A stretch of 64,000 nucleotides of DNA from Sphingobacteriia bacterium RIFOXYC2_FULL_35_18 (lineage in GTDB: Bacteria; Bacteroidota; Bacteroidia; Chitinophagales; Chitinophagaceae), in NCBI GenBank assembly GCA_001829005.1, contig MIAG01000001.1, positions 1-64,000 on the forward strand, read 5' to 3'. The position numbers and the translations under genes are program-made. Positions 1 through 15,572 of the stretch are shown here, in pieces; position 1 is the stretch's first letter, and each line of letters starts with the position of its first letter. The notes beneath the pieces were generated by a model. That model made no database searches and had not been told where the DNA came from. It saw only the letters and a program-made list of their open reading frames with translations.

Positions 1-726
1 GAAGGAATTACAAGTATTTATTTGCTAAACTCGAACCATGTTAACCTATCAAATATACTTTTCAATAATGGAACTGCTTTATTGAGCCTAGCTTTGTTAT
101 TTATTGCTCCTTTGGTAATGTGGTACTTCATCTCCGATACAATTAAAAAAGCCAAAGAGAGCCGGTTTGCAACATCAGCGCTATCTCGAATTAAAAACGA
201 CCCCGCTATTTTTAATACACTTCTAGAAAAGCAGGATGAGATTGGAGAACTGCCTAAAAACTTAGGAATCATAATTGGAGATCAAAATGCAAAACATCGA
301 ATTGTAAAAATATGCAACCCGCATTGCGGCCCCTGTGCCAAAATGCATGTAAAACTTGAGCAATTATTGGCGCAGTTTAAAGATGTATCAGTACAAATTA
401 TATTTAATACACCTTTAAATACTAAAGACAGGCGGTATTTACCAACGAAACATTTATTAGCCATCGCCAACTCTGGCAAAGCAAATCATTCATTAAACCA
501 TGCATTAGATGACTGGTACACAGCACCGGTAAAACTGTATGATGCCTTTGCTGAAAAATACCCTGTAGACAACTTAGAAGACGAAAGACTTGATGATTGT
601 ATTAAAACTATGAGCAATTGGTGCAACCACCATAATATTTCAGCTACCCCTATTGTTTTTATTAACGGTTATAAATTACCAAAAAACTATTCAATCAATG
701 AACTGGCGCATATTTTGAAAGATTAA
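1..726 (+). CDS. Membrane thioredoxin-fold protein, C-terminal part (5' end outside window)
   Basis: The reading frame is open from the first base of the window, so the true start lies to the left. Visible parts are one hydrophobic membrane segment (about bases 70-135), a charged linker, and a thioredoxin-like domain with the redox motif CGPC (NPHCGPC, bases 316-336). Further on there is a TPIVFINGYKLP stretch, the usual cis-Pro region of DsbA/DsbG-like folds. In Bacteroidota this C-terminal arrangement is typical of proteins that fuse a vitamin K epoxide reductase membrane domain, sometimes with a C39 peptidase domain, to a thioredoxin domain, often beside exporters of GG-leader peptides. 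The membrane reductase part is not visible here, so that identity is inference. The thioredoxin domain itself is clear. It probably oxidises or isomerises disulfides of the Cys-rich peptide encoded at 2368-2622. Confidence 0.75.
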   Translation, partial: EGITSIYLLNSNHVNLSNILFNNGTALLSLALLFIAPLVMWYFISDTIKKAKESRFATSALSRIKNDPAIFNTLLEKQDEIGELPKNLGIIIGDQNAKHRIVKICNPHCGPCAKMHVKLEQLLAQFKDVSVQIIFNTPLNTKDRRYLPTKHLLAIANSGKANHSLNHALDDWYTAPVKLYDAFAEKYPVDNLEDERLDDCIKTMSNWCNHHNISATPIVFINGYKLPKNYSINELAHILKD

Positions 727-826
727 TATTTGCGAAGTAACTAGCTTAAAATTAATTGTTTTATTAAGTTAATCAATGCAAAGTAGTTATGCAATTTAAT
801 CGAAATATTAAACTGAATAATTGGGT

Positions 827-2314
827 CTATTCCATTTTAACTATTTTCAATATTTCCTCATATAAAACGCTTTCTGAGCTTGGTCTTGATAAATTCATAT
901 AGAATTTATCTTTTAGTTTATCGAAAATAAAGTACTGAGGTATATTCAATCCTCCTGACTCTTTCCTTTGTAAAAGATGTTCTAAAATTTCAACTTGGAT
1001 TTTCTTATCTGCAATATAATGGTAGCCATTTAAATAATATTTTTTTATTATTTCTTTCCACTTCGTTGAATCCCTTCTTTCATCAATAGATAAGTAAATT
1101 TTTTTAATCTTTAAAGAGTCTAATTGTTTTTCTAATTGACTTGTATAAGCAAATTCACCAATACAAGGTGCGCACCAAGTAGCCCAAACATCAATAAAGA
1201 AAAATCGTTCTTTATGAAAATTGAAAATCTCTTTTAATGAATTATAATTTTTTAATATTATTTCTTGATGGCTATATGCTTTTTGTCGAACCATTTTTAT
1301 TGAGTCATAAATGGCATTCATTTTTTTCAAGTACATAGAATTTGGGTAGTACTTAGCAAATACTATAGCATTTGCTTTATTTGACAAATTTTCATTATAA
1401 GGGGATATGATTGCTGGTAATAAAACTGAGTTTCCCCATGCGTTTTCCCTGTAAGTACTATCAAATAAAAAGAAATAATTTTCATAGATTTTCTTTAATA
1501 AAGTATCTTTTATTTTTAAATTACTTTTGATTTTTTCTGTTAAATATGTTTCATGAAACCTACTCCCTATATAAGTTTTTAATAAATACTTATCTGAAGC
1601 CCCTTGCTCTATAAATATCTTTTGAATTAAAGAATCGTAAAGATTTAGCATGGAACTTGATTTTGATCTTGCTTTTTTGTTTAAAAAATACCTAACAAGG
1701 TAACGATTCATACCTGCTTTTGTGTCAGAAAAATATAAATTATAAACTGGTGATGAAATTTTTTTCAATATTAATAATGAATCCCAAACCTTTAATTTCT
1801 GATTTAAAATTTCTTTATACTTCTCATACAATTCAAAAATATTTTCGTTACTAGATTCATTTATTATGCTGTCAATTGAAGGAAATGTTTTTGAAATAGG
1901 ATTAAATCTATCTCTATAAATATTATGAGCCACATAATTTGATTTTGCTAAACTAATTTTATAACTAGGTTTGCCAGTATTTTTTAAATCTGAATCTTTT
2001 GCTATTGTAACATCAACATCAATTGTATCACCTGGATTAACAGCCAATATTGCACCTCTCTGATTATTAAAAAGTAATCTAAAAAAGATTTCTGAATTTC
2101 GATCTAATTCTATTTGCATAGTTGAATCCATATGTTTTGTTATACTACCTTCATAATATGCTAAATCCAAAAAGTAATCATTATGTATATAATTACTATA
2201 TTTAATTGTATTATTATTAGATCCATGAATTCGAATATTTATTAACGATTTTTGACCAATACAGTTTGAAACTAATAGTACTCCGAATAAAAAGTAAATC
2301 AAATTGATTTTCAT
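827..2314 (-). CDS. Secreted TlpA-like thiol-disulfide oxidoreductase
   Basis: 495 residues. An N-terminal hydrophobic signal (residues 1-20, ending near SNC; the Cys could be lipidated but the lipobox is poor) precedes a long region of unknown fold. A C-terminal thioredoxin domain starts near residue 371 with FIDVWATWCAPC; the active cysteines are Cys381 and Cys384. An IPQYFIFDK stretch supplies the expected cis-Pro. This layout is typical of Bacteroidota TlpA/ResA-like periplasmic reductases. It lies downstream of the GG-leader peptide gene on the same strand, 53 bp away with a hairpin between them, so it may keep cysteines of that peptide, or of the export machinery, in the right redox state. 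The gene is strikingly AT-rich. A degraded paralogue of its last 80 codons lies at 6626-6868. Confidence 0.85.
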   Translation of the reverse strand: MKINLIYFLFGVLLVSNCIGQKSLINIRIHGSNNNTIKYSNYIHNDYFLDLAYYEGSITKHMDSTMQIELDRNSEIFFRLLFNNQRGAILAVNPGDTIDVDVTIAKDSDLKNTGKPSYKISLAKSNYVAHNIYRDRFNPISKTFPSIDSIINESSNENIFELYEKYKEILNQKLKVWDSLLILKKISSPVYNLYFSDTKAGMNRYLVRYFLNKKARSKSSSMLNLYDSLIQKIFIEQGASDKYLLKTYIGSRFHETYLTEKIKSNLKIKDTLLKKIYENYFFLFDSTYRENAWGNSVLLPAIISPYNENLSNKANAIVFAKYYPNSMYLKKMNAIYDSIKMVRQKAYSHQEIILKNYNSLKEIFNFHKERFFFIDVWATWCAPCIGEFAYTSQLEKQLDSLKIKKIYLSIDERRDSTKWKEIIKKYYLNGYHYIADKKIQVEILEHLLQRKESGGLNIPQYFIFDKLKDKFYMNLSRPSSESVLYEEILKIVKME

Positions 2315-2340
2315 AAACTAACTTAAAAAGTAAAAATTTA

Positions 2341-2369
2341 AAAGGCTATCCTAAGATAGCCTTTTTTTT
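2341..2369 (-). terminator. Hairpin between precursor peptide gene and TlpA gene
   Basis: A perfect stem AAAGGCTATC/GATAGCCTTT with a CTAA loop lies between the stop of the peptide gene (2368) and the start of the TlpA-like gene (2314). Read on the minus strand it is followed by a T-rich run (TTTTAAATTTTT), so it can act as an intrinsic or partial terminator. On the plus strand it is followed by eight or nine T. Such attenuating hairpins after a precursor gene would let the small peptide be made in excess over the downstream enzyme; that role is inferred. Confidence 0.7.
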
Positions 2370-2622
2370 AAAAGTTTGTACAACCTGTACAAGTTCCAAT
2401 ACCTTCTTCGCAATTTACTGTAAGATCATTCATTATAGCTTGTGAAGACGGTTGGGCAGGGCTATTCGGCTCATTATGAGCAGTATAATGCCATTGACCT
2501 GAACCGTAAGTACAAGTGCACTCACAAAAACTGTCATGCCCACCCTTTACTTTTTTCATTTGCAAACGAGTAAGGATGTCTGAACTTTCAAAGCTCATTT
2601 TTTCGAAAGAAATTGTTTTCAT
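2368..2622 (-). CDS. Cys-rich peptide precursor with GG leader (RiPP-like)
   Basis: 84 residues. The N-terminus (MKTISFEKMS) and the LQMKKVKGG end of the leader match the Bacteroidota natural-product precursor pattern, in which a K(x)KGG double glycine is cut by a C39 peptidase/ABC exporter. Predicted cleavage after Gly28 leaves a 56-residue core. The core has six cysteines: Cys33, 35 and 37 in FCECTC near the start, and Cys71, 78 and 81 near the end (GTCTGC). The middle is rich in Ser, Thr, Pro, Asn and Gln, with no charged clusters. The start ATG is preceded by an A/T-rich leader as is usual in this phylum. Neighbours encode two thioredoxin-fold proteins and, divergently, glycosyltransferases. 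The core looks like a disulfide-stabilised and possibly glycosylated secreted peptide. No known peptide is recognised, and the activity is unknown. Confidence 0.8.
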   Translation of the reverse strand: MKTISFEKMSFESSDILTRLQMKKVKGGHDSFCECTCTYGSGQWHYTAHNEPNSPAQPSSQAIMNDLTVNCEEGIGTCTGCTNF

Positions 2623-2707
2623 TTTTTATATTTTTTTGGTTAACAATAAATGCAATTTCAAAAAGCAGAGTCTAATATTATCGGACTCAGTTTAATGAAT
2701 TTTGGGT

Positions 2708-3700
2708 ATGCCTATAGTAACCGTTCAGAACCAATACTTAACATTTTTCCCTCCTCAGAATCTAACAACTAGTTATGTACTTACAACTAATTGGTTGTTA
2801 AAGCCTCATGAATCAGGCTTCCCAGAAGAATTAACCTACAAAGCTTATGATAACTGTAATGGACTTCAAGTAAAGAAATCATTAGAAAAAAAGAGCAAAC
2901 TAAGAGTAACATATATTTCAAATAGTGGAGATAATGAGGAATTATACTTTCTCATGCGTATTATTTCTTTATTTAATAAAATGTCTTCTATTCAAAGAAC
3001 GATTTATTGTGGCAAGACTGATATTGAATACTTAAAGCAAATATCGAATGAAGGAATTGAATTTGTTTTAAGAGAGGAGCAACAACAACTAGAAACAGAA
3101 GTAATTCTATGTTTTGGCTCTTCGACAATTCATTTTCTGAAATCAGGTTTACCCGTAATTATAGTAGGTACATATGGACTGGGCGGTCATATCACACCTG
3201 AAAATTTCGAATTTCTGTTAAAAAAGGGGTTTATGGGAAGGCCTGGTGGTGCATATAATGAGGAGATACCTATTGAATTACTTGCTGAAGAAATACTTGA
3301 AGTGCAACATAGTAGGATATTAATAAACCAAAATAAGCAAATACAGGCACTAATAAAAAAGAATCAAATTCCCGATTACGATACTTTATATAATCATTTA
3401 GAATTGTTTAGTATTGAGTATTGGATTAGTGATATCAAAAGGAGATGGCAATTGGATATGCAGTTAGCTAGTAATATTCAAATACTTACAAATGGCAAGA
3501 AAACTTTCTTAGTTCGACAACATATAAACGATGTTATGGCATCATTTAACGAAGTAGAGGCGTTGTTTTTTAAATATCTTTTAGAAAAGAGGTCCTCTAA
3601 GGAAGCTTATAACAAAGCAGCAATTCCTATAAAAGACTTCTGGCTAATGGTATCTGTATTGTGGGATAAAAAAATAATTATTCTTTATGCTAAGAGTTAG
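2708..3700 (+). CDS. GT-B glycosyltransferase-like protein with possible C-terminal winged-helix domain
   Basis: About 330 residues. I chose the ATG at 2708; a TTG two codons upstream is the only alternative before an in-frame stop. Roughly residues 65-210 look like the nucleotide-sugar half of a GT-B fold: a beta-strand/helix pattern followed by VILCFGSSTIHFLKSGLPVI, then a glycine-rich GTYGLGGHITPENF segment of the kind that binds the sugar nucleotide. The first ~60 residues are too short for a full acceptor domain. The last ~70 residues (from ILTNGKKTFLV to the end) have the pattern of a small winged-helix or PqqD-like domain, used in some RiPP enzymes for leader binding. I infer that only from pattern. 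It heads a plus-strand operon divergent from the peptide gene and overlaps or abuts the next gene. Confidence 0.5.
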   Translation: MPIVTVQNQYLTFFPPQNLTTSYVLTTNWLLKPHESGFPEELTYKAYDNCNGLQVKKSLEKKSKLRVTYISNSGDNEELYFLMRIISLFNKMSSIQRTIYCGKTDIEYLKQISNEGIEFVLREEQQQLETEVILCFGSSTIHFLKSGLPVIIVGTYGLGGHITPENFEFLLKKGFMGRPGGAYNEEIPIELLAEEILEVQHSRILINQNKQIQALIKKNQIPDYDTLYNHLELFSIEYWISDIKRRWQLDMQLASNIQILTNGKKTFLVRQHINDVMASFNEVEALFFKYLLEKRSSKEAYNKAAIPIKDFWLMVSVLWDKKIIILYAKS

Positions 3701-3722
3701 CGATTTGGAGCTTTCAGCTCAA

Positions 3723-5126
3723 ATGGAAGTGAGTATAATACTACCGTTGCTTACACTTTCTAGAATGCATAAAACTTGGATTCAAAACGATACCTTCTTT
3801 AGAACTGGTAATTTTGTAGAGTTAATAATTGTTACCAAGACGAAAAATAGAGCTAAAATAGAAAGTTGGATTTCTCAGGCCTTGCCTGCAAATTTATCAG
3901 TTATTTTTTTAGACTCAGTTTCAATTACAGACTGTTATCATAATGGGATTCGAAGATCGTCTTTTAATAATATTTTACTAATAACTCCTGAAAATATTGC
4001 ATCGAATGTTTCATTGCTTGAATTACTCCGACTAAAAAAAAACTATTCTAATAGTTATATTTTTTCTGTGGGAGTAACTAATACTCAGAAACAGAATATG
4101 GCACAATCATTATTGCTATCTAAGGTAGATATTCAGCAGATAAAATTAGAAAACTACGTATACTCAAACACCAATCAGTTTTTTGACAGTGTTCGAGTCT
4201 TATTGGGACAGTTTGGAAAATTAGAAATTAAAAGAGATGAAGTCTGTAATAACTATTTCCCCAAAACCTTTATCAAACCTTCAATAAAACACTTTGAAAA
4301 TCATACTAAAATAGAAAAAAATAAGCCTTCTGTAGATCCTGTTAATGGGCTTTCAAGTAATATAAAACTAATAAGCAATAAGTTTAAAAAGCTTATAGTT
4401 TATCCTCCACAAAAAATAAAAAATAAGCATAACATTATCTGTTTATTACAAGTTAAAAATGAAGCTCTCATCATTAAAGAAGCATTGGATCATTTTTCAG
4501 AACATTTCGACGGGATAATACTATTAGACGATGGAAGTACAGATAAAACCTTTGAAATTGCAACTACACCAAAACTACTATGTAAAGCTCAGAAGAAAAA
4601 TATAAATAAAGGCTTTAATGACCTAGAGAATAGAAATCTGTTATTAGAGATGGCATTTTTCTTCAAATCTGATTGGCTCATTTTTTTAGACGCAGATGAA
4701 AGACTTCACCATAAATATGATAATTTAAAGGATATATTACAAAGAACCCAAGCAAATGTTCTTGAATTTAAATGTGTGCATTTATGGGACTCAGCCGAAA
4801 AATATCGAGTTGATATACCTGAAGGTAGTAATGGGATAATGTCTCGGTGTAGGATGTTTCGGAATAAGGGTTGGATGCAAATTTACAGTAATAGAGAAAT
4901 ATATTTTACTGCTGTACCTTTCTTGAAAAACACTCAATCTGTGCCAATTCTAATTTTGCATTATGGATTAATGGATAAAGAAACACGACAAAGAAAATAT
5001 GATTTATATAAGTCCCAAGATAAAGAAGCGAAAAAACAGGGATATGATTATGAATATTTACTAGATGATGATCCTGCATTGGCAGATATTGAGCTTATTA
5101 AACTATCTACAGATAAAGTAATATGA
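3723..5126 (+). CDS. Two-domain family 2 glycosyltransferase
   Basis: 467 residues from the ATG at 3723 (MEVSIILPLL is a natural GT2 start). An ATG at 3687 would add 12 residues and overlap the previous gene by 14 bp. Residues ~1-190 have the alternating strand/helix look of a GT-A fold but lack a clear DxD and are probably non-catalytic. The second half is a good GT2 domain: NIICLLQVKNEALIIKEAL, then LLDDGSTDKT (bases ~4520-4550) and a DADER motif (4689-4703) that fits the metal/nucleotide-binding DxD. There is no membrane segment, so the enzyme is likely cytoplasmic and transfers a sugar from a nucleotide donor. The acceptor is unknown. By context it could be the Cys-rich peptide, a surface glycan or a lipid carrier. 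The next gene overlaps by 4 bp (ATGA), so the two are cotranscribed. Confidence 0.75.
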   Translation: MEVSIILPLLTLSRMHKTWIQNDTFFRTGNFVELIIVTKTKNRAKIESWISQALPANLSVIFLDSVSITDCYHNGIRRSSFNNILLITPENIASNVSLLELLRLKKNYSNSYIFSVGVTNTQKQNMAQSLLLSKVDIQQIKLENYVYSNTNQFFDSVRVLLGQFGKLEIKRDEVCNNYFPKTFIKPSIKHFENHTKIEKNKPSVDPVNGLSSNIKLISNKFKKLIVYPPQKIKNKHNIICLLQVKNEALIIKEALDHFSEHFDGIILLDDGSTDKTFEIATTPKLLCKAQKKNINKGFNDLENRNLLLEMAFFFKSDWLIFLDADERLHHKYDNLKDILQRTQANVLEFKCVHLWDSAEKYRVDIPEGSNGIMSRCRMFRNKGWMQIYSNREIYFTAVPFLKNTQSVPILILHYGLMDKETRQRKYDLYKSQDKEAKKQGYDYEYLLDDDPALADIELIKLSTDKVI

Positions 5127-6475
5127 TGAGATACTTTAAATGTTTGTTGTACTTTTTTTTATTGCTATTTCTTACCATTTTAAAAAATGGTAAAGGGATA
5201 AGAAAAATAGAGCAATATTTGATTGATAAAATAAACAACCAAGGTATATTTCATTTGAATGTAAGTTCTATTGAATATTTATTCCCTACTAAGTTTGTTC
5301 TAGATATACTACAAGTAAATAAAATCAATAGCTTTTCAATTGAGTTGAAAGAGTTTACTATTAAAGTTTCTTCACCTTTTTCCTTACAATTCTACACTCA
5401 ACAAATTAATATTTACAATAATGGTTCACTAGACATTAGCCTGCAAGATTGTAGCTGCAGAATAAGTGTTATTCCTTCTTTAGTGGGCATTAAAGTAATA
5501 ATACGTAATGAAATAGGAATCAAAAAGTTCATAATAGAAACCTTGATTGCAAGAAACTTTATTGCTAAAACAGTTGCAATTAATATAAATACTGGAGGAA
5601 TAGCTATACAACAAATACTATCGATTTTTCAAAGACTAAGCTTCCCTAAGCTGAAAAATATTAAGATTTCTGGTAGAAAAACTTTTCAATTACAATTTGT
5701 TTATGCATCTAATAAACCAATGAATTATTCATTTAAATATAATGAAACTGGTGTTTATGAAGTTAATAGTAAAAATATACACGAATTTAATTACTTGCAA
5801 AACAACAAAGCTCACACAATAATTGACAATAATAACAATATAAAAACATTTTTATTTAATGAAATGGACGAGGAATTCATATCCATAGTTGATATTCCTG
5901 ACATAGTACTTAAAACTATTATTACAACTGAAGATCCCAATTTTTTATTTCATAATGGGTTTGATATCGACTGTTTTGGCTTTGCGTTGGCTACAAATAT
6001 AGAAACCAGAAAATTAGCAAGAGGGGGCAGTACAATTACTATGCAATTGATTCGCAATCTTTATCTTGACAATAGTAAAACATTTAGTAGAAAAATGGAG
6101 GAAATTATTCTTACGTGGATTATTGAAGATCAGCTTCATGTTCCAAAAGATAAAATTCTTGAATTATATTTCAATAGAATAGAAATGGGCCCGGCTTTAT
6201 ATGGAATTAAAAATGCAGCTATGTTCTACTTTAATAAGCGAGTAGAAGATCTTACTTTATTAGACAGCCTCGTTTTGTCGTATATTATACCTAGACCGAA
6301 GTTCTTTTTGCCCGCTTTAATTAGCCAATCTCAAATACTTAAGAAAAATTTAAAATTACATTTAAAGAAATATGCTTTAATAATGAGTCAAAGAGAACTT
6401 ATAACAAAAGATGAGTTTAAAAAAATACAGTATACTATTCAATTTTCAAAGAGATTAGGTAAGCTTGAATTATAG
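5123..6475 (+). CDS. Monofunctional GT51 peptidoglycan transglycosylase-like protein
   Basis: 450 residues. A single N-terminal membrane segment (residues ~5-20) is followed by ~230 residues with no recognised fold, rich in beta-strand patterns. A GT51 glycosyltransferase domain then fills about residues 265-420. The family motifs are present in order: TTEDPNFLFHNGFD (with the catalytic Glu), GGSTITMQLIRN, RKMEEIILTWIIED and KDKILELYFNRIEMG. There is no transpeptidase domain, so it resembles MtgA-type enzymes that polymerise lipid II, but is longer because of the extra middle domain. The GGSTITMQL segment has Met where most GT51 proteins have Gln. It overlaps the GT2 gene by 4 bp. Why a cell-wall polymerase sits in a peptide locus is unclear: self-protection, target decoy or simple hitch-hiking are all possible. 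Confidence 0.8.
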   Translation: MMRYFKCLLYFFLLLFLTILKNGKGIRKIEQYLIDKINNQGIFHLNVSSIEYLFPTKFVLDILQVNKINSFSIELKEFTIKVSSPFSLQFYTQQINIYNNGSLDISLQDCSCRISVIPSLVGIKVIIRNEIGIKKFIIETLIARNFIAKTVAININTGGIAIQQILSIFQRLSFPKLKNIKISGRKTFQLQFVYASNKPMNYSFKYNETGVYEVNSKNIHEFNYLQNNKAHTIIDNNNNIKTFLFNEMDEEFISIVDIPDIVLKTIITTEDPNFLFHNGFDIDCFGFALATNIETRKLARGGSTITMQLIRNLYLDNSKTFSRKMEEIILTWIIEDQLHVPKDKILELYFNRIEMGPALYGIKNAAMFYFNKRVEDLTLLDSLVLSYIIPRPKFFLPALISQSQILKKNLKLHLKKYALIMSQRELITKDEFKKIQYTIQFSKRLGKLEL

Positions 6476-6625: not shown

Positions 6626-6868
6626 CTAATTTGCAAGAGAAACAATTTTCTTAACTTCTTCGTATAAAATATCCTTTGAACTAGGCCTTGATAAATTCAT
6701 GTAATATTTATTTTTGAACTTATCATAAAGAATATATTGAGGTATAGTTAAGCTCCCATTTTCATTCTTCTTTAATAATCTTTTTAGTATGTCGGCTTGT
6801 ATGCCATTTCCTGCTAGAAAGTGACTCCCTTTTAAAATGTACTTAGTGATTGCACTTTTCCATTTACT
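6626..6868 (-). pseudogene. Remnant of a second TlpA-like gene (last 80 codons)
   Basis: On the minus strand the frame runs from SKWKSAITKY to an intact stop at 6626-6628 and aligns without gaps to the last ~78 residues of the TlpA-like protein encoded at 827-2314. By hand I count about 43 identities in 78, including IPQY, YMNLSRPSS and LYEE. The frame meets a stop immediately upstream (near 6875), and no start codon, signal sequence or CxxC motif remains. It is therefore a 5'-truncated gene, not an expressed protein. Its upstream end coincides within a few bases with the end of comM homology, marking a recombination junction. The 150 bases between the GT51 stop and this remnant show nothing recognisable. 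Confidence 0.85.
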
Positions 6869-6930
6869 TCTATACTAATGGTGATGGCATCTACCCCTTG
6901 CACCGAACTGCCAAATGCTTTAACAAACAT
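6862..6930 (-). pseudogene. comM: First ~23 codons of yifB/comM, truncated
   Basis: Reading leftward from the ATG at 6930, the first 23 codons are MFVKAFGSSVQGVDAITISI followed by EVN. This is the highly conserved N-terminus of YifB/ComM, the Mg-chelatase-like AAA+ helicase (usually ~510 residues) that promotes branch migration during natural transformation. After codon 23 the similarity stops and the sequence becomes the tail of a TlpA-like gene in another frame; the comM frame ends within about nine more codons. The two homologies share 7 bases (AGTAAAT) at the junction. The rest of comM is not in the window and could lie beyond the left edge if the island was inserted, or be deleted. Confidence 0.75.
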
Positions 6931-6944
6931 GTTCTTGTTTTAAT

Positions 6945-6967
6945 AGCACAAAATCAGCATTTGTGCT
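6945..6967. promoter_or_regulatory. Inverted repeat between comM remnant and metallophosphoesterase gene
   Basis: Perfect 8-bp arms AGCACAAA/TTTGTGCT separated by 7 bases. It lies in the 73-bp divergent spacer upstream of the gene at 7004 and of the old comM start at 6930. It could be an operator for either direction or a small hairpin. A weak -7-like TAACTTTC follows at 6992-6999, just before the ATG at 7004. Confidence 0.35.
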
Positions 6968-7003
6968 GGTATAATTATTGGTGTTTATACCTAACTTTCG
7001 CCC

Positions 7004-8854
7004 ATGAAAAAACGGTGGCTATTATTCATTTTGTTGATTGCAATGGTGCAAGTAAATGCACAGTGGAAACCTTTTCGTTTTGCGTTTATATCAGACACAC
7101 ATATTGGGTCTCCTAACGGAAGTGCTGAAGAAGATTTACGCAGAACGGTAGCTGATATCAATAGCATGAATGATATTGCATTTGTTGTACTCACTGGAGA
7201 TATTACCGAATTAGGAACGGATGCAGAAATTAAATTAGCCAAAGAAATACTAGCTGAATTAAAAGTACCTTATTATATCATAGCGGGCAATCATGATACT
7301 GGTTGGAGTGAGAGTGGTGGCGTTAGTTTTGGAAAAATTTTCGGCTACGATAAATTCAGTTTTAATTTCAATGGCATTCAATTTATTGGTTGCGCTTCGG
7401 GTCCTTATGTTAGAATGAGTGATGGTCATATTCCACGTGATGCAGTGAATTGGTTAGACCTAGAATTAAAAAAATTACAAACCAATCAACCCGTTGTTTT
7501 TTTAAATCATTATCCATTAGACAAAGATTTAGATAATTGGTATGAAGCAGTAGATCGTTTAAAGAACCATCGCACATTGGCCGTATTGAATGGACATTGG
7601 CATACCAATAGAAGAATGCAGTATGAAGATTTACCAGCAGTAGTGGGCAGGTCCAATCTTAGGGCCAAAGCGGCTTATGGCGGATATAATTTGGTAGACG
7701 TACGATTAGACTCTATGATTTTTGCAGAACGCACACCTGGCATTGAAACTAAAAAAGCATGGACAGGCATAGACTTAACCAAGAAAGATTTTAGCCCCAA
7801 CAAAAAAAATTATCGCCCTGATTATTCCATGAACGATAGCTTTCCATCTGTAAAAGCTCGTTGGGTATATGCATCTGATGCCAATGTAATTTCAACACCT
7901 GCAGTTACTAGCAGCTTAGTCATTTTTGGAAATAGTTTAGGAAGCATAGATGCCATTTCAAAATCAACAGGAAAAAAGAAATGGTCTTATAAAACAAAGG
8001 GTGCTATTTATTCAAGCCCTGCTATTGTACAAAATAAAGTAGTAGTTGCTTCAGGTGATGGCAGTATCTATTGTTTAAATTCCAATAATGGAAAACTCAT
8101 TTGGCAATTCAAAGCGGAAACTGCTGTATTAGGCTCTCCTTTAATTCATGACAACAAAGTTTATATAGGTGGAAGTGATCATCATTTTAGGTGCATCGAC
8201 CTTGCCACTGGCAAACAGCGTTGGAGTTTTGGGGAGTTAGACGGACCAGTGGTGAGTACCCCTGTATTCAGTAATGGTAAAATTATTTTTGGTTCTTGGG
8301 ATCGTCACTTATATGCATTAGATGCTTATACAGGAAGCCTTTCATGGAAATGGAACAATGGTTCAATGGTGCGGAATTTTGCACCCGCTTCTTGTATTCC
8401 TGTGGTGCAAGATGATATTGTATACATAGTTGCTCCCGATCGTTTTTTAACAGCCATCGATTTAAACAATGGCAATACTTTATGGAGAACAAAGGAAGTA
8501 AGTGTACGAGAATCAATTGGTATTTCTGCTGATGGTAAATGGTTGTATTGCAAAACTATGTCGGATGGATTTGCGGTATTTCCAACAGGAAGAACATTGC
8601 AAACATTGGCTTGGAAAAAAGATTTTGGCTTTGGATATGAACATGTGCCCAACATGCCTATTGAAAAAGATGGCAAAGTTTATTTTGGTACCAAGAATGG
8701 CATCGTGTATGGAATAGATCCTTATACCCGAGAAAAATTATGGCGTTACCGAATTGATAATTCAATGGTCAATACCATCAACCTTAGCAATGCCAATGAA
8801 TTAGTAGCGGCTACAATGGATGGGAAAGTTACCTTACTCGATTTAAAATATTAA
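7004..8854 (+). CDS. Secreted metallophosphoesterase with PQQ-like beta-propeller
   Basis: 616 residues. A signal peptide (residues 1-19, ending VNAQ) is followed by a calcineurin-like phosphoesterase domain, residues ~24-220. Its metal-binding motifs are FISDTHIG, VLTGDITE, IIAGNHDTG, LNHYPL and NGHWHTN, and all the usual Asp/His/Asn ligands are there. From ~280 to the end there are at least six PQQ/WD-like blades with repeated patterns such as GSIYCLNSNNGKLIWQF and GIVYGIDPYTREKLW, forming a beta-propeller. The family hydrolyses phosphoesters; the substrate cannot be told from the sequence. The propeller probably mediates binding. The protein should act in the periplasm or at the cell surface. 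It ends 4 bp into the convergent CoA-binding gene. Confidence 0.88.
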   Translation: MKKRWLLFILLIAMVQVNAQWKPFRFAFISDTHIGSPNGSAEEDLRRTVADINSMNDIAFVVLTGDITELGTDAEIKLAKEILAELKVPYYIIAGNHDTGWSESGGVSFGKIFGYDKFSFNFNGIQFIGCASGPYVRMSDGHIPRDAVNWLDLELKKLQTNQPVVFLNHYPLDKDLDNWYEAVDRLKNHRTLAVLNGHWHTNRRMQYEDLPAVVGRSNLRAKAAYGGYNLVDVRLDSMIFAERTPGIETKKAWTGIDLTKKDFSPNKKNYRPDYSMNDSFPSVKARWVYASDANVISTPAVTSSLVIFGNSLGSIDAISKSTGKKKWSYKTKGAIYSSPAIVQNKVVVASGDGSIYCLNSNNGKLIWQFKAETAVLGSPLIHDNKVYIGGSDHHFRCIDLATGKQRWSFGELDGPVVSTPVFSNGKIIFGSWDRHLYALDAYTGSLSWKWNNGSMVRNFAPASCIPVVQDDIVYIVAPDRFLTAIDLNNGNTLWRTKEVSVRESIGISADGKWLYCKTMSDGFAVFPTGRTLQTLAWKKDFGFGYEHVPNMPIEKDGKVYFGTKNGIVYGIDPYTREKLWRYRIDNSMVNTINLSNANELVAATMDGKVTLLDLKY

Positions 8855-9210
8855 TACTGACCCGTATTCAACATCACCAATGTGCATGCTTCTATAGCAG
8901 CAATGCCGTTTTGTTGAGCAAGTTCTTCGAGTTCCTCGTTTTCCGTTCCGGGATTAAAGATGATGCGCTTGGGATGGAGCGACAAAATAAAATCGTAGTA
9001 GGCTTTTTGCGCAGTTGGGTTTAAGTATAAAGTAACCGTATCAATATCATTGATTACCGGTGGCTCTGTTTCAATTTGCACTCCTGCAACCACAGCGGCT
9101 TTTCTTCCCACAGCCACTACTTCATGCCCATGTTTACGCAAACGCGTAACTGCTTCAAAACTATACCTGGCGGGGTTTTCAGACGCACCAAGGACCAATG
9201 TTTTTTTCAT
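8851..9210 (-). CDS. CoA-binding domain protein (YccU-like)
   Basis: 119 residues, a single Rossmann-type CoA-binding domain. The start MKKTLVLGASENPARYS carries the nucleotide-binding GASxNP loop, and PKRIIFNPGTENEELEELA with the following EACTLVML segment is typical of the stand-alone CoA-binding family related to succinyl-CoA synthetase alpha. These small proteins bind CoA but their metabolic role is not settled. The ATG overlaps the stop of the CDGSH gene by one base (TAATG), so the two are translated from one message. Confidence 0.85.
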   Translation of the reverse strand: MKKTLVLGASENPARYSFEAVTRLRKHGHEVVAVGRKAAVVAGVQIETEPPVINDIDTVTLYLNPTAQKAYYDFILSLHPKRIIFNPGTENEELEELAQQNGIAAIEACTLVMLNTGQY

Positions 9211-9419
9211 TATTCGTTCTCCTTAATCAACTGCTTATGCGAAGCATCGCAATAAGGTTTATTCATAGACATACCACAACCACAAAGCGATACTTTCTCT
9301 TTTACATCCACCGTACCATCAGGCTTATGAATATAAGATTTAGAAGTAATTACAATCGGGCCCAATGGCTTTATTAAAATATCTACACCGTCTTTTACAA
9401 TTGCTTGTTCTTGTTCCAT
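9210..9419 (-). CDS. CDGSH iron-sulfur domain protein
   Basis: 69 residues. The C-terminal half carries CGCGMSMNKPYCDASHK, which matches the CDGSH pattern C-x-C-x2-(S/T)-x3-P-x-C-D-x-(S/A/T)-H. It has three Cys and one His to hold a 2Fe-2S cluster, with Ala replacing the second Gly of the name motif. The N-terminal part is short beta-strand sequence, as in small bacterial CDGSH proteins. It is cytoplasmic and probably serves in redox or cluster transfer. It overlaps the downstream CoA-binding gene by one base. Confidence 0.9.
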   Translation of the reverse strand: MEQEQAIVKDGVDILIKPLGPIVITSKSYIHKPDGTVDVKEKVSLCGCGMSMNKPYCDASHKQLIKENE

Positions 9420-9439
9420 GCAATAAAGATACGAAGGCT

Positions 9440-11533
9440 TTATTTGATGGTGTAACGTATTCCTAAAAAACCTCGAATACCCTGATTAGGCGCAAACATA
9501 TAAGTAGGATCAAAACTGAGTGCGTAGGGGTTGTCTGCGGTTGCTCTAACTTGTCCATTAGGTTGAAACTGTACTGCTTTATCAAATGGATCATTGGCCC
9601 TTGCAATCAAAAATGGGCTATACCGAGTGGGTAAAAAGTTCAAGAGATTTTTTACACCACCATACAATTCAAAACCATGCCAATAATGAAAAGTAAACTG
9701 GATATTTTGTAAGCTATACCAGGGGGAGTAAGACTGCCGTGGATCGAGCGGTCCTAACAAAGGCAAACGCATAGGACTGTAAACATTGCCCGTGTAATCA
9801 ATGTCTAAATGAATGGAAGGAATACGATAAGACAAAGACCAAGTACCAGAAAATCGTTCAGTTAATATTTGTTGTTCTTTTTGTTGGTTATTGTACAATG
9901 CTACATCCATATAAGTAGCACCAATATTTAGTTTGATTCCATTGTTCAACGCAATATCTGCATTGGCAGAAACGCCTTTGCTTATGGCATGTCCTTTTAA
10001 ATTGGAATAAATAATTTGATTAGGATCAGTTTCAAAGTCGCCTACAATTCGATTGTTAAAATACGTGTAGAACGCACTAAAATCAAGGGTTGTGGCAGCT
10101 GTGCCCTTTCCATAGATTTTATGGATATAATTCAAATTGATATTGAAAGATTGTTCTGGTTTGAGTTGTTCAGTCAATACTACTTTTCTAGCGCCTGATA
10201 ATGCCGCATGGTCTTCTGTAAATAAATTCACTACCCTAAAACCAGTTCCCATATTCAATCGAAGGAACTGTTGATTGTTAATCGTGTACTTATAAGCAAT
10301 GCGTGGCGTGAAAATATTTCCATGCGCCGAATTATAATCGTAGCGAAGCCCTACTAATAATTTGTGTTGATTGTTAAAACTAATTTCATCTTGTGCAAAA
10401 ATGCCTGGTAAAATAATTCGCTGTGGGGACGTTCCCATTTTAGTGCGATCTGTTGAACCTGTTGCAGGGGTATTGTCGTTGTAATAAGTAAAACGTAATG
10501 CAGTACCTAATAAGAAATCATGCTTGCTAATTGTTTTATCCCATACCATTTGCGCAAAACCTACTTGTTGTTTGGCCATATACAAAGTATTGCCATACAT
10601 GCTATTTTGATGATGGTGATTCAACGAAAAAGCAAGACTAATTTTTTCAGTAGTGGGTAACTGATAATTGCCTAATAATTCAACACGGTTGGTGTAGATG
10701 CTTTCTCCATAAACAGAATCTGTTCCTCTGAAACCTTTGTTCCAATTCATTTGCCCGCCCCAACGATCTTCATAAAAATATCTAGCAGCTAGATTCAAGG
10801 TTCTGTTTTGCTTTTGTTGAATTGACCATTTTTGAAAAAGGGAGACGCGTTGCTGCAAAGTCAAATCGGTAAATCCATCTTTATTGTTATCGATGGGATT
10901 ACTGTAATTGAAATAATTAATGCCTGTTAACACGGTCGCTTTGCTCCCCACATTGCTAGTAAAACCTAAATCGGTGTTGACTTCCCCCCAAGTGGTAGCC
11001 ATCATATCTGCAGATATATGAGGAGCGGTTCCTGTTTTTTTAGTGATCACATTAATGAGTCCACCAATGGCTTCACTCCCATATAAAGTAGATGCTGGTC
11101 CTTTTACTATTTCAATTCTTTCAACCATGGAAGCAGGTATACCCGATAAACCATAAACGGTAGATAAACTACTTACTATGGGCATTCCATCAATTAATAC
11201 CATGGTATAAGCACCAGGTAGTCCATTGATTCTGATTTCGCCTGTATTACAAATATTACAATTGCTTTGCGGCCTTACTCCATTCACATGGAGTAGCCCT
11301 TCAAAAATATGAAAGGCAGGATTCTTCTTTAAGAAAGCAGCTGAATATACTTCAACAGGAACTGGGCTTTCCACTCTTTTCACTTCTTTTAAAGTGCCTG
11401 TAACTACTACTTCAGCCAACTCTGCTTGCATGGGTTTGAGCAAGCGAGAAGTATCGGCAGGCAGCTGTGCCATAGTGCTAAAGCTGTTGCCTATTACCAA
11501 TGATATGACCGATATAATTGCCGAAAATTTCAT
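9440..11533 (-). CDS. TonB-dependent outer-membrane receptor, probably for a metal chelate
   Basis: 697 residues. A signal peptide (ends near TMAQ) is followed by a TonB-box/linker, then the plug domain from about residue 40. It contains NCNICNTGEIRING, LIDGMPIVSS, VERIEIVKGPASTLYGSEAI and GGLINVITKK, all conserved in TonB receptors. The rest is the 22-strand barrel, ending with an aromatic-type LGIRYTIK C-terminus. The plug has a CxxC pair. No SusD partner or carboxypeptidase-like N-terminal domain is present, so a siderophore, haem or metal-complex receptor is more likely than a glycan receptor. It is transcribed away from a DtxR/MntR-type regulator with an 18-20 bp palindrome between, which points to metal-responsive repression. 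Confidence 0.9.
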   Translation of the reverse strand: MKFSAIISVISLVIGNSFSTMAQLPADTSRLLKPMQAELAEVVVTGTLKEVKRVESPVPVEVYSAAFLKKNPAFHIFEGLLHVNGVRPQSNCNICNTGEIRINGLPGAYTMVLIDGMPIVSSLSTVYGLSGIPASMVERIEIVKGPASTLYGSEAIGGLINVITKKTGTAPHISADMMATTWGEVNTDLGFTSNVGSKATVLTGINYFNYSNPIDNNKDGFTDLTLQQRVSLFQKWSIQQKQNRTLNLAARYFYEDRWGGQMNWNKGFRGTDSVYGESIYTNRVELLGNYQLPTTEKISLAFSLNHHHQNSMYGNTLYMAKQQVGFAQMVWDKTISKHDFLLGTALRFTYYNDNTPATGSTDRTKMGTSPQRIILPGIFAQDEISFNNQHKLLVGLRYDYNSAHGNIFTPRIAYKYTINNQQFLRLNMGTGFRVVNLFTEDHAALSGARKVVLTEQLKPEQSFNINLNYIHKIYGKGTAATTLDFSAFYTYFNNRIVGDFETDPNQIIYSNLKGHAISKGVSANADIALNNGIKLNIGATYMDVALYNNQQKEQQILTERFSGTWSLSYRIPSIHLDIDYTGNVYSPMRLPLLGPLDPRQSYSPWYSLQNIQFTFHYWHGFELYGGVKNLLNFLPTRYSPFLIARANDPFDKAVQFQPNGQVRATADNPYALSFDPTYMFAPNQGIRGFLGIRYTIK

Positions 11534-11555
11534 CTTTCTGAACGTAAAAGTATAA

Positions 11556-11575
11556 TTGTTAGACTAGCCTAACAA
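11556..11575. promoter_or_regulatory. DtxR/MntR-type operator
   Basis: The palindrome TTGTTAGACTAGCCTAACAA has perfect 7-bp arms (TTGTTAG/CTAACAA) and a nearly symmetric centre (ACTAGC). It closely resembles the DtxR/IdeR box, a palindrome built on TTAGG...CCTAA. It sits in the 74-bp spacer between the TonB receptor and the regulator gene, where it could control both promoters. Confidence 0.75.
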
Positions 11576-11607
11576 ATTTTATTTAGATTTTCACTTATTT
11601 TTAGGGC

Positions 11608-12291
11608 ATGCAAGTACTTTCTTATACGGAGGAGAATTACCTAAAGGGGATTTTTAAGTTGACCATTGAAATGGCCGATAAAACCGAAGCAGGTACCAAT
11701 GAAATTGCAACCCACTTAGGCGTAAAGCCCGCTACGGTAAACGATATGCTGAAGAAACTGAAGGATAAAAAGCTTATTCATTACGAACGTTATGGTAAAT
11801 CTTCTTTAACCAAAGAGGGTAAAAAAAGAGCTATTGAGATTGTAAGAAAGCACCGATTATGGGAAACTTTTTTACACGAGAAGTTAGCATTTAACTGGGA
11901 CGAAGTGCATGAAGTTGCAGAGCAGTTAGAACATATACAAAGCAAAAAATTAATTGATAAATTAGATCAGTTTCTAAACTATCCATCAGCAGATCCACAT
12001 GGTGATCTTATTCCCAATGCAAAGGGCGAGCTCAGTATTCTTCCCCGTAAAACCTTAATAGAAGAATTAGTAGGGCATCAATGTAAAATGGTAGGTGTAA
12101 AAGATAATTCAGCAGAATTCTTAAAATACGTAGATAAATTAGGCCTATCTATTAACCAACCCATCAAGGTAAAAGCAAAACAAGCTTACGATAATCAAAT
12201 TGATATTGAAGTAAATGGCAAGAAGCACAGTATCAGCCCCAAGTTTGCCGAGCAGATCATTATTGTATGCCCAACTTGTAATAAAAAATAA
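11608..12291 (+). CDS. DtxR/MntR-family metal-dependent regulator
   Basis: 227 residues. Residues 1-65 are the winged helix-turn-helix (NEIATHLGVKPATVNDMLKKL is the recognition region). Residues ~66-140 are the metal-binding/dimerisation domain with the family signature HRLWETFLHEKL, then WDEVHEVAEQLEH and DPHGDLIPN, which supply the His/Glu/Asp metal ligands. Residues ~150-220 form a FeoA/SH3-like domain. Known relatives repress metal-uptake genes when bound to Mn(II) or Fe(II). The gene is divergent from a TonB receptor and shares the operator at 11556-11575, so autoregulation plus control of the receptor is likely. Whether iron or manganese is sensed cannot be decided from sequence. Confidence 0.9.
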   Translation: MQVLSYTEENYLKGIFKLTIEMADKTEAGTNEIATHLGVKPATVNDMLKKLKDKKLIHYERYGKSSLTKEGKKRAIEIVRKHRLWETFLHEKLAFNWDEVHEVAEQLEHIQSKKLIDKLDQFLNYPSADPHGDLIPNAKGELSILPRKTLIEELVGHQCKMVGVKDNSAEFLKYVDKLGLSINQPIKVKAKQAYDNQIDIEVNGKKHSISPKFAEQIIIVCPTCNKK

Positions 12292-12303
12292 ATAAAGAAA
12301 ACC

Positions 12304-13710
12304 TTAATCGATATTTACTTCGCCCTGTTTCATTTTATTCAATACTGTTTCATATGCTGCAGTAGAAAAACGCATAGTAGATCTTAGTTTAATGGCTTTT
12401 TCTTCCCAATTAATGGCTTCCACTTTATTGCCTGTTCTATATAGTAACCTTGCATAAGTATCTATCAATTCTGCTGATTCAAAAAACTCTAATCCTCGTT
12501 TAGCTAATAATAAGGCCTTACTTAAGTATGCAGGATTTTTAGAAAAAGTATATACATCCCATGCGCCTTCATTCAACGCATTGGCATAAAATTGTCCTCG
12601 GGGTGTAAATTGTATCATATTACGTTGTACGCCTTGAACAGGAGCGTTTTTATTTAATTTAATACGAATGCTATCGGGAATTTGAGCAAAAATTTCAGGA
12701 GGAATTCCCGAACCAGCAGTTTTGAGCAACTTTATTTGCGCCAATGAATCTTCTTTGCGAATATCTTCAGGCTTTATATTCATGAAGTAACGTTCATAAA
12801 AAGAAAATACATTACGCATATAATTAACAGTATCATTAACGCCTTTATAATAGGTAAGCATTAGTTGCATATTGGCTTTAGGCCCTTCTTCAGGTTTATC
12901 GGTAGTAAAAGTATTTTGCCTAAATGCAGCAACTTGATACGCAAAAGGGAGGTTTTTATCTTCAATTGCTTTATTGATAGACTTAAAGGTAATTCTACTA
13001 TTAATGACCTGACGTTCTCTCAAAGGCATATTATACCAAGCTATCATGTAATTATCTTTTTGCTTTTCTACAAATTTTTGTGCAATAGAACCAACAATAG
13101 GTGCGCATCTCAAAACATATTGAAGAAAAGTAATAGCAGTTGCTGAATCATCAGGTGCTTTTTGTGTGAGTTCGTCAATAAGATCGGGATGAGGTTCAAA
13201 TCCAATCTTTAATACTTTATCTACAAGCTTACGAATCACTACAAAATCACCAACTTTATTATAGTAATTGTGTTTCAATTCTTTAAACGAACCAGTATTC
13301 GAACGCATTTCTGCAATGGCACGTTGAATACCTTGAATATAGGGATATGCCATTGTAGAGCTTGAAGGTAATATTTGTAAAATGTTCAACTGTGCATCAA
13401 ACCAAATAATACCAAAAAAATCTTTAGGTACTATATAAATAGAATTTGCTACATTCAACTCAACAGGAAAACGAGGTTGACGTATTAAAATACAATTGCT
13501 ATCTATACTTTTCTTTGCAGCCACCAATCCTGCTTCGGCAACGTCATTACACTGAACACATTTTTCCGATGTAATTACCAGCATTACTAATTTATTTTCC
13601 TTATCAGCTTTTTTAGCAGCTTCTTCAAAAGTAAGTGTAGAAAAATGAGGCTGTGCAAATACACCAACTGAGCATAATGCCAAAAGGATAAAGAAATAAG
13701 ACTTTAACAT
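12304..13710 (-). CDS. Secreted protein with N-terminal thioredoxin-like domain
   Basis: 468 residues. The signal peptide ends at FAQ (about residue 19). Residues ~25-150 are a thioredoxin-like fold with KLVMLVITSEKCVQC, where the CVQC motif takes the active-site place, and a VPKDFFGIIWFD stretch. The rest is helical and without a recognised domain; the last ~100 residues have a TPR-like look (KALLLAKRGLEFFESAEL, LLYRTGNKVEAINWEEKAIKL). It may be a periplasmic disulfide or heme-handling protein; the function is not known. It lies 30 bp downstream of dnaX and could be read from the same message. Confidence 0.65.
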   Translation of the reverse strand: MLKSYFFILLALCSVGVFAQPHFSTLTFEEAAKKADKENKLVMLVITSEKCVQCNDVAEAGLVAAKKSIDSNCILIRQPRFPVELNVANSIYIVPKDFFGIIWFDAQLNILQILPSSSTMAYPYIQGIQRAIAEMRSNTGSFKELKHNYYNKVGDFVVIRKLVDKVLKIGFEPHPDLIDELTQKAPDDSATAITFLQYVLRCAPIVGSIAQKFVEKQKDNYMIAWYNMPLRERQVINSRITFKSINKAIEDKNLPFAYQVAAFRQNTFTTDKPEEGPKANMQLMLTYYKGVNDTVNYMRNVFSFYERYFMNIKPEDIRKEDSLAQIKLLKTAGSGIPPEIFAQIPDSIRIKLNKNAPVQGVQRNMIQFTPRGQFYANALNEGAWDVYTFSKNPAYLSKALLLAKRGLEFFESAELIDTYARLLYRTGNKVEAINWEEKAIKLRSTMRFSTAAYETVLNKMKQGEVNID

Positions 13711-13740
13711 AGATTGATTATTGGAACATAAATATAAGGA

Positions 13741-15552
13741 TCAATAATCAATCTCCAATCGTAGCTTATCGCGCAGTTCTCTAACCAATGGATACTGCTC
13801 AGCAATGCGTTCAAATTTTTGCTTACTGTTTAATCGCATATGCAATGGCACGTCTTCTCTTTCCCCTTCTTCTACTAAGATGGTAAAATTAATGGCTCTG
13901 TTATTGAACTGCGTTTGTAACTGATCTATCAAAACCATTTTTTCACTCTCAATAAATTTCTGTGCAGTAACTGCAGAAACGCGAACGGTAAAATGGATAT
14001 CACTTTCAATTTCTAAACTGGCAATTCTGAATGTACCAACCGCAGAATGTTTTAATTGTTGTTCCAATTGAACTATGTAAGCATCCCAAAAAGCACGAAG
14101 ACTTTCCTCAGTTAAAGGCATGGCTTCTTTAACTTCTTCAATTTGGTAATTACTGCCCGCTTTTTCTTTGAGTGCTTCTAATAAAGATTTCTTAGGCCCA
14201 GTTTTAATTGTACCAACGGGAGCGGGTGCAGCGGTTTGCGCAACAAACAATTTCGCACCAGCTGAAGTATTTGTATTACCGGGTTCCGCATTTATAATTG
14301 GCTGCGATGCATTGCTAGCGGGCTTCACAGCAGGTTGCCTAGAAGATACAGGTGGTGCTGGTGGTGCCAGCGACTGAATCATTTTTGTTTTAAAGGCAAT
14401 GGGTCCGTCAAGTCGTTTTTTTTTAACTACAGTTCCCTTATCGGTGGTGAGTTCTATGGCTTGTTGCAAAAAGCTGAGCTTAATTAATGCAAGCTCCACG
14501 TGTAAGCGCTTATTGCGCGCCATTTTATAATTGACTTCAGTGTCGTTTAAAATATTTAATGCACTCACTAAATAGCTTAATGAGGTTTGACCAGCAACTT
14601 GAACATATTTGGCCTGCATTCCTTCTACTACTTCTAATAAAGAAGCCGACTTAGCATCTTTACATACCAGAAGATTACGAATAAATTCTGCAAAACCATT
14701 TAATACCAAATCACCTTCAAATCCTTTGCGATTAATTTGATCAAACAGCAGCATTGCTCCTGCCATATCCTGCTTTTGCATACAATCTAGCAGTTGAAAA
14801 AAATAATCCTCATCTAAAATATTTAAATGCTCAAGTGTATTTTGATAAGTAACCGTACCATTGGTAAAGCTGACAATTTTATCAAGAATACTCAATGAGT
14901 CTCGCATACAGCCCTCACTCTTTTGAGCAATTACTTGCAGTGCTGCTTTCTCTGCATTGATTTTTTCTTTGTCTACAATTTCTTGTAAGTGTTCAACCGT
15001 ATCGTTGTTGGTTATTCTTTTGAAGTCAAAAATTTGACACCGACTTAAAATGGTCGGTAAAATTTTATGCTTCTCTGTAGTAGCTAAAATAAAAATAGCA
15101 TAAGGAGGTGGCTCTTCCAGTGTTTTCAGAAATGCATTGAATGCACTTGAACTGAGCATATGAACCTCATCTACTATATATACTTTGTATTTTCCTGCTT
15201 GTGGAGCAAAACGTACTTGTTCTACTAGTGCGCGAATATCATCCACCGAGTTATTACTGGCCGCATCCAATTCATGAATATTCATGGAAGTACCTGCATC
15301 AAAAGATACACAACTATTACAAGTATTACAAGCTTCGCCGTCTGCTGTTTGATTGGTACAGTTAATGGTTTTAGCCAAGATACGGGCACAGGTTGTTTTA
15401 CCCACTCCTCTTGGTCCGCAAAATAAAAATGCATGCGCCAACTGATTATTGCGAATGGCATTCTTTAGCGTAGTGGTAATATGTTGTTGCCCCACTACTG
15501 TATTAAAGTTTTGGGGACGATACTTACGTGCTGATACTATAAAATTATCCAT
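13741..15552 (-). CDS. dnaX: DNA polymerase III subunit gamma/tau
   Basis: 603 residues, the clamp-loader ATPase of the replisome. Domains in order: AAA+ module with Walker A GPRGVGKTT (around residue 45), a four-Cys zinc module (NCTNQTADGEACNTCNSC), Walker B YIVDEVHMLS, sensor 1 ATTEKHKILPTILSRC, the lid domain, and a collar domain to about residue 360. A Pro/Ala-rich linker (~380-430) leads to a C-terminal tau-like region. Both key ATPase motifs and the arginine-finger SRC are intact. The length fits the tau form in this phylum. I saw no clear slippery site for a separate gamma form. Confidence 0.96.
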   Translation of the reverse strand: MDNFIVSARKYRPQNFNTVVGQQHITTTLKNAIRNNQLAHAFLFCGPRGVGKTTCARILAKTINCTNQTADGEACNTCNSCVSFDAGTSMNIHELDAASNNSVDDIRALVEQVRFAPQAGKYKVYIVDEVHMLSSSAFNAFLKTLEEPPPYAIFILATTEKHKILPTILSRCQIFDFKRITNNDTVEHLQEIVDKEKINAEKAALQVIAQKSEGCMRDSLSILDKIVSFTNGTVTYQNTLEHLNILDEDYFFQLLDCMQKQDMAGAMLLFDQINRKGFEGDLVLNGFAEFIRNLLVCKDAKSASLLEVVEGMQAKYVQVAGQTSLSYLVSALNILNDTEVNYKMARNKRLHVELALIKLSFLQQAIELTTDKGTVVKKKRLDGPIAFKTKMIQSLAPPAPPVSSRQPAVKPASNASQPIINAEPGNTNTSAGAKLFVAQTAAPAPVGTIKTGPKKSLLEALKEKAGSNYQIEEVKEAMPLTEESLRAFWDAYIVQLEQQLKHSAVGTFRIASLEIESDIHFTVRVSAVTAQKFIESEKMVLIDQLQTQFNNRAINFTILVEEGEREDVPLHMRLNSKQKFERIAEQYPLVRELRDKLRLEIDY

Positions 15553-15572
15553 AGAAATTGCTGCAATATAAC

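Follow-up and report, generated by a model that had tools for sequence, protein, structure and literature searches.

As an integration hotspot, comM is best known from the resistance islands of Acinetobacter. The parts of the cited papers that deal with this gene describe its interruption by large islands at a preferred point, i.e., by transposons of the Tn6022/AbaR type with tni transposition genes, 26-bp inverted repeats, and 5-bp target duplications, and place the AbaR islands between comM bases 835 and 836 (PMC8767349, PMC12904642, PMC11406308). They also describe a 14-kb segment with XerC-type genes that interrupts Acinetobacter comM and a novel ICE in the comM of two Acinetobacter genomes (PMC8767349, PMC12904642). 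A review table has Tn6022 targeting and inactivating comM, and the text of the review names the gene as an att site of a CRISPR-associated Tn7-like group (PMC11406308); the word comM is absent from the main text of a survey of Tn7-like cargo (PMC8649781). A sequence-only reading of the DNA analyzed here had suggested that comM is a hotspot outside Acinetobacter, too, and this indeed turned out to be the case: integrations into the gene recur across more than one class of the same phylum, with other machinery, namely a large serine recombinase (LSR) at the breaks examined.

The locus that led to this result lies near the left end of a 64,000-nucleotide stretch, hereafter the window, which starts at base 1 of contig C1 in the 13-contig assembly of Sphingobacteriia bacterium RIFOXYC2_FULL_35_18 (G000). 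On the minus strand, codons 1-23 of comM (6862..6930), recognized as the 5' remnant of a resident gene by their identity to a full-length copy on contig C12, run into the 78-codon tail of a second TlpA-like gene (6635..6868, minus strand), which lost its front part at the joint. All 23 residues read from 6930 to 6862 are found unchanged at the N-terminus of the genome's own full-length ComM (tblastn, E 5e-7), the leader and comM start together give a 172-bp DNA match of 96.5% to that copy, and the TlpA tail (6868-6635) shares 43 of its 78 residues with the C-terminal end of the TlpA-like product of 827-2314. The tail is read in a different frame from the comM start, so that no fusion protein results. 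Comparing the scar with the full-length comM and the TlpA-like gene, we found that both homologies share the 8 bases AGTAAATG at ca. 6861..6868 (minus strand), a microhomology common to comM and the TlpA tail that we read as an illegitimate joint; taken by itself, an overlap of 8 bases says little about the mechanism. The earlier reading was thus right that a true comM N-terminus of ca. 23 codons stands here and that joint and overlap are real, but its figures of 7 bases and 80 TlpA codons are to be replaced by 8 and 78.

A full-length comM lies at C12:6583-8145 in the same genome. Its open frame of 523 aa matches the TIGR00368 profile at C12:6601-8094 with 631 bits against a cut-off of 362.4, which makes it a member of the ComM/YifB family, and the protein has all of the ChlI, Mg_chelatase, and Mg_chelatase_C domains and matches the solved ComM 8RXD (E 4e-124). 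A 3' comM remnant follows 15 kb beyond this copy at C12:23306-23696 and consists of resident codons 353-389 and 420-518 (TIGR00368 match at C12:23294-23670, with a stop); codons 24-352 of the resident gene are missing. The left end of C12 (C12:3-869) holds residues 1-289 of a VKOR-thioredoxin protein that is resumed at C1:1, where the C-terminal half of the gene is cut by the contig end (1..726, plus strand). Both halves align to consecutive parts of the homologues at C1:708692 and C1:712286 (38-41% identity), with ca. 80 nt unseen between the contig ends as judged from homologue spacing. The split of this gene over the two contig ends puts the full copy and the two remnants in one locus, with the full-length comM in the middle. 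This locus runs from MPE through comM codons 1-23, the TlpA tail, and ca. 13 kb with peptide-export genes to an MPE fragment and the full comM, and from there over another 15 kb to the comM piece beginning at codon 353 and to MAO, with the MPE side in the window and the MAO side after the 3' remnant on C12. MPE (7004..8854, plus strand; Pfam) is a metallophosphoesterase with a PQQ-type propeller and the native neighbor of comM, divergent from it. The two homologous VKOR-thioredoxin genes, ca. 3.6 kb apart on C1 and with equal scores, perhaps mark a second, tandem peptide-export locus.

Two expectations of the sequence-only reading change with this arrangement. It had looked for the rest of comM to the left of the window, which begins at the first base of its contig; the resident remainder is instead the 3' remnant on C12. 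It had also expected impaired natural transformation, which does not follow, as the genome keeps a full-length open comM that is predicted to be probably working; ComM is thus not obviously lost. An intact comM elsewhere in the genome had been seen as speaking against a scar of this kind, and such a copy does exist, but the N-terminal similarity stems neither from an unrelated gene family nor from an unrelated site. An N-terminal scar beside an island therefore does not mean that the gene has been lost.

The foreign DNA between scar and full copy comprises ca. 13 kb of cargo with VKOR, a VanY-type peptidase, HlyD, a peptidase-C39 ABC exporter, and a response regulator. In the window, it further includes the TlpA-like thioredoxin-fold protein (827..2314, minus strand; AhpC-TSA, E 8e-6) and an 84-aa frame with a VKGG motif (2368..2622, minus strand), which from its sequence is a possible exported-peptide precursor and has no Pfam match. 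Three genes on the plus strand follow: one with no family matched in a Pfam search (2702..3700), one with a glycosyltransferase family 2 domain (3687..5126; Pfam), and one with a transglycosylase domain (5123..6475; Pfam). Taken together, window 1-6475 and C12:1-6143 resemble a peptide-export cluster, with C39 ABC exporter, HlyD, VKOR, TlpA, and the short VKGG frame, that is accompanied by the glycosyltransferase and transglycosylase genes.

To the right of the scar, the window is collinear with a close relative of the same genus (G011; 94.9% over 9648 bp of window 6858-16497), so that this side is native. G011 carries one whole comM, to the stop codon, between the same neighbors as in G000 and in the order MPE, comM, 3.3 kb, MAO, amidase, and MutS-like gene. 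The alignment to relatives with an intact comM beside the metallophosphoesterase gene, which the earlier reading had proposed, thus bears it out in that the N-terminal similarity is true comM at its true site. MPE, comM, and MAO follow in the same order in G017, G254, and G206, with 0.03, 1.6, and 9 kb, respectively, from comM to the complete MAO and, in G206, an extra MAO piece in between. In G206 (L183), a different cargo is flanked by duplications of 377 bp of the comM 3' end and 870 bp of MAO (99.7-99.8% identity), which reflect a recent additive recombination at the same locus.

The two comM copies of G000 can be compared with G011 over codons 420-512. At 21 sites, the 3' remnant sides with G011 and the full copy stands apart, agreeing with G206 at 9 of them; remnant and full copy are alike and differ from G011 at 7 sites, and full copy and G011 are alike and differ from the remnant at 6. 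Of the 7 sites uniting remnant and full copy, six fall in the last ca. 80 bases, where the two have probably exchanged sequence, and the allele test is therefore not clean. Out of 56 codons of the MPE fragment next to the full copy, 16 depart from native MPE, 12 of them synonymously, compared with 5 differences, all synonymous, between native MPE and G011 over the same codons, and this divergence indicates that the fragment, too, comes from another lineage. Based on the allele sites and the divergent MPE fragment, the full-length comM is most likely an imported foreign allele, and the 3' remnant resembles G011. The 5' half of the full copy is 94.1% identical to G011 and gives no placement of where homologous exchange began, and the 5' leader with codons 1-23 does not separate the comM copies.

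The recurrent break point became apparent across genomes. We searched 248 genomes of the order, G000 included, of which 28 gave at least two comM pieces; coordinates were taken for 34 genomes, i.e., 25 of these 28 and 9 with one weak or short match, and the remaining three (G000, G010, and G026) were examined separately. Both halves of comM split at codon 352/353 are found in 10 of the 248 genomes, on one contig and 22 to 76 kb apart in seven (G046, G087, G094, G098, G149, G204, G219) and on two contigs in three (G068, G161, G208). In addition, G129 has a 3' piece from codon 353 with a 5' piece that ends earlier, and G120 has such a 3' piece only; the remaining genomes show frameshifts, contig ends, other break points, or shorter extra pieces beside full comM (G053, G059, G206). 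The insertion site is MNP^CPCG with a TG core, the left joint reads comM..CCN-TG-arm, the right joint reads arm-TG-YCCNTGYGG, and the arms form inverted repeats around the core, with NNNNTGYGTTGCC as their common rough consensus. Our joint tables comprise 7 left and 16 right joints matching regular expressions, with junctions that miss them (e.g., the 3' junction of G204) absent and further left joints read separately. We also considered that the C-terminal pieces could be cargo that regenerates comM in the style of tRNA-site elements, but the left and right arms, which are inverted repeats of each other, contain nothing of comM.

An LSR gene of one family stands at the break in nine of the ten genomes with split comM (not in G087), beside the 3' half in G098 and beside the 5' half in the other eight. 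Family members are 45-56% identical to the G204 copy, which has Resolvase and Recombinase domains (Pfam). Across the order, 13 of 248 genomes carry 15 copies of the family, of which 9 adjoin broken comM and another two lie inside the G087 island. A sample of the phylum gave 8 copies in 6 of 296 genomes, five of them beyond the class, with four copies adjoining broken comM (one being G098 again). In three genomes of other classes (G316, G386, G434), for which the 5' halves were examined, the 5' half of comM breaks off at codon 352-355, and the left joint is the same. Other copies sit elsewhere, so that the family is not confined to comM. At the right end of the G204 element lies a gene with two helix-turn-helix stretches (L163:3699-4145; Pfam), and similar frames were seen by eye at the same place in G149 (L164, near attR) and G026 (L039:11751-12305); this gene is a possible candidate for a directionality factor. 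Breaks at other points of comM were observed near codon 278 in G132 and G180 and at the Walker A motif near codon 222 in G166 (L189, L190, and L188), in each case with another LSR within 1 kb that belongs outside the main family.

In G000, the 3' remnant starts exactly after MNP (codon 352), as 3' pieces of other genomes do, and so do two 3' pieces of G010 and one of G026 that lie downstream of a full-length comM reading, which in G010 contains stops. Using a 20-base arm profile built without these three genomes, we scored the right arm next to codon 353 of G000 at 14.5 bits, a value reached by 3 of 311,348 positions, itself included, and exceeding two of the training arms. The score of the G026 arm is reached by itself alone and that of the first G010 arm by 14 positions, so that the G010 case rests mainly on position. 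These are fossil attachment sites beside full-length comM, and the 3' remnant of G000, judged by its sequence, starts at an attR-like fossil of LSR elements. A left attachment site was not found in G000 and a genome search gave no LSR of the main family, which means that G000 holds a fossil and not an element. Its only LSR fragment (C12:15355-15768) was considered as the integrase of the fossil and discarded, as it has no match to the comM-site family. Among 80 named loci that were fetched with the full-length protein, two have a further clear comM piece nearby, comprising codons 353-391 in L095 (Phaeodactylibacter sp.) and 282-511 in L125 (Muribaculaceae), and a third candidate (L100) gave only a weak 65-residue match. 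As a separate observation, comM codons ca. 277-352 are inverted in place in G010 (L037:6653-6907), and the ends of this inversion are the MNP^CPCG site and the RSPHHT motif (codon ca. 278), where other LSRs also cut.

We therefore favor, with a probability of roughly 0.6, that the comM locus of G000 was hit at least twice, by an LSR insertion and then by an imported cluster with intact comM, joined by microhomology at codon 23. An LSR integrative element would first have inserted into resident comM at codon 352/353 (MNP^CPCG, core TG), with the right attachment site and comM from codon 353 onward (C12:23306) as survivors. The attR-like fossil and the 3' remnant are present as described, and the element that made them presumably belonged to the LSR family found in the other genomes. 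A segment from a related lineage would then have brought the peptide-export cluster, the MPE fragment, and an intact comM and replaced resident codons 24-352, with one end paired by homology in or near comM and the other joined via the 8-base microhomology to resident codon 23, leaving a full-length comM flanked by both ends of its broken predecessor. Microhomology, two alleles, and contig adjacency are observed; we infer in which order the events took place, that the second was a single one, and that the DNA was taken up by natural transformation. ComEC is present in G000, and the G206 duplications are a recent event of a related kind. The scar in the window is neither an integration point nor a recombinase site but most likely the microhomology-joined end of this later import.

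Four other explanations were weighed against this two-event history. The one that survives best, though still unlikely, is additive recombination, in which circularised or concatenated cargo with comM ends enters by a single homologous crossover and leaves duplicated ends on both sides. The G206 duplications show that this form occurs, but G000 lacks resident codons 24-352, and its 3' remnant starts at the attachment site and not within a repeat. We consider it improbable that a single island went straight into or through comM at the junction in the window, thereby inactivating the gene, as the sequence-only reading had it. A comM end does lie on each side of the foreign DNA in matching orientation, and foreign DNA did enter the comM locus, but the full-length comM stands inside that DNA, the window joint combines microhomology with a truncated cargo gene at codon 23, and the recurrent recombinase site is codon 352/353, with its fossil on the other contig. 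Duplication of comM in place with decay of one copy would account for two copies in one locus but is very improbable, as most changes fall in the full copy and not in the scar (21 sites versus 6) and the G026 copies differ, unlike under decay, by 24 synonymous and 2 non-synonymous codons. An assembly artefact or contamination is just as improbable even though the locus spans a contig break in a 13-contig assembly, because contamination is given as 0.22, the break interrupts a gene whose two halves align one after the other to a single homologue, and similar 3' scars occur in the one-contig genome G010.

Beyond the two-event history of G000, scars elsewhere suggest repeated cycles in which comM is broken and restored. 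Full copy and scar of G026 differ at 26 of 162 codons (24 synonymous, 2 non-synonymous), and G046 has, besides split comM, two 3' copies, each behind its own attR-like arm, that differ from one another at 71 of 162 codons (66 synonymous, 5 non-synonymous). In G010, the full reading differs from scar 1 at 69 synonymous and 26 non-synonymous codons and from scar 2 at 51 and 50, and the two scars differ at 40 and 38, so that scar 2 is decaying. The synonymous excess in G026 and G046 indicates copies that diverged as working genes and were then brought together, and we rejected on these grounds that 3' pieces are decayed copies of the full one, with G010 partly showing the opposite. Among the 3' pieces, 17 begin at profile positions 334-346 and extend to the end; 15 of these are open frames, and those of G000 and G094 have a stop. 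Detached open 3' pieces of ca. 170-220 aa were observed in G026, G046, G068, G087, G098, G129, G149, G208, G219, and others; alternatively, such pieces may still be used as a separate C-terminal ComM protein. Tentatively, and at somewhat less than even odds, comM may thus be a battleground in which LSRs of the phylum repeatedly split it at MNP^CPCG and hosts repeatedly regain a working comM through a foreign allele, leaving fossils of attR plus 3' end. If so, G046 would represent a full cycle of breakage, restoration, and renewed breakage. ComM helps to integrate DNA that has been taken up, and the element would therefore disarm a process able to remove it, which the host would rearm.

What the split comM genes add to the picture from Acinetobacter is a different recombinase, in another bacterial group, that uses comM as well, at a target site that is exactly delimited and occurs in more than one class, and they provide a serine recombinase whose site in a conserved gene is defined. 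The pattern fits the idea that mobile elements gain by breaking the transformation machinery of their hosts, and the scars, as a countable record of restoration, make this idea testable. As far as the Tn6022/AbaR islands are described in the parts of the literature considered here, the systems are alike in that comM is repeatedly interrupted by large islands at a preferred point and differ in that the break lies at codon 352/353 and involves a serine recombinase, inverted arms, and a 2-bp TG core. The AbaR point (bases 835/836, codon 279 in the numbering of the Acinetobacter gene) differs from the breaks of G000 at codons 23 and 353, and the second LSR site near codon 278 may lie near it. Elements with large serine recombinases (serine integrases) share the Resolvase and Recombinase domains, the location of the gene at the element end, the 2-bp core, and the symmetric arms, and the difference lies in comM as the target. 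Homology-facilitated illegitimate recombination in natural transformation joins foreign cargo beside a homologous gene through a few bases of microhomology at one end. The AGTAAATG microhomology at one joint of G000 is alike, with the difference that the process is here deduced from a fossil seam, for which the homologous gene would be comM and the cargo ca. 13 kb.
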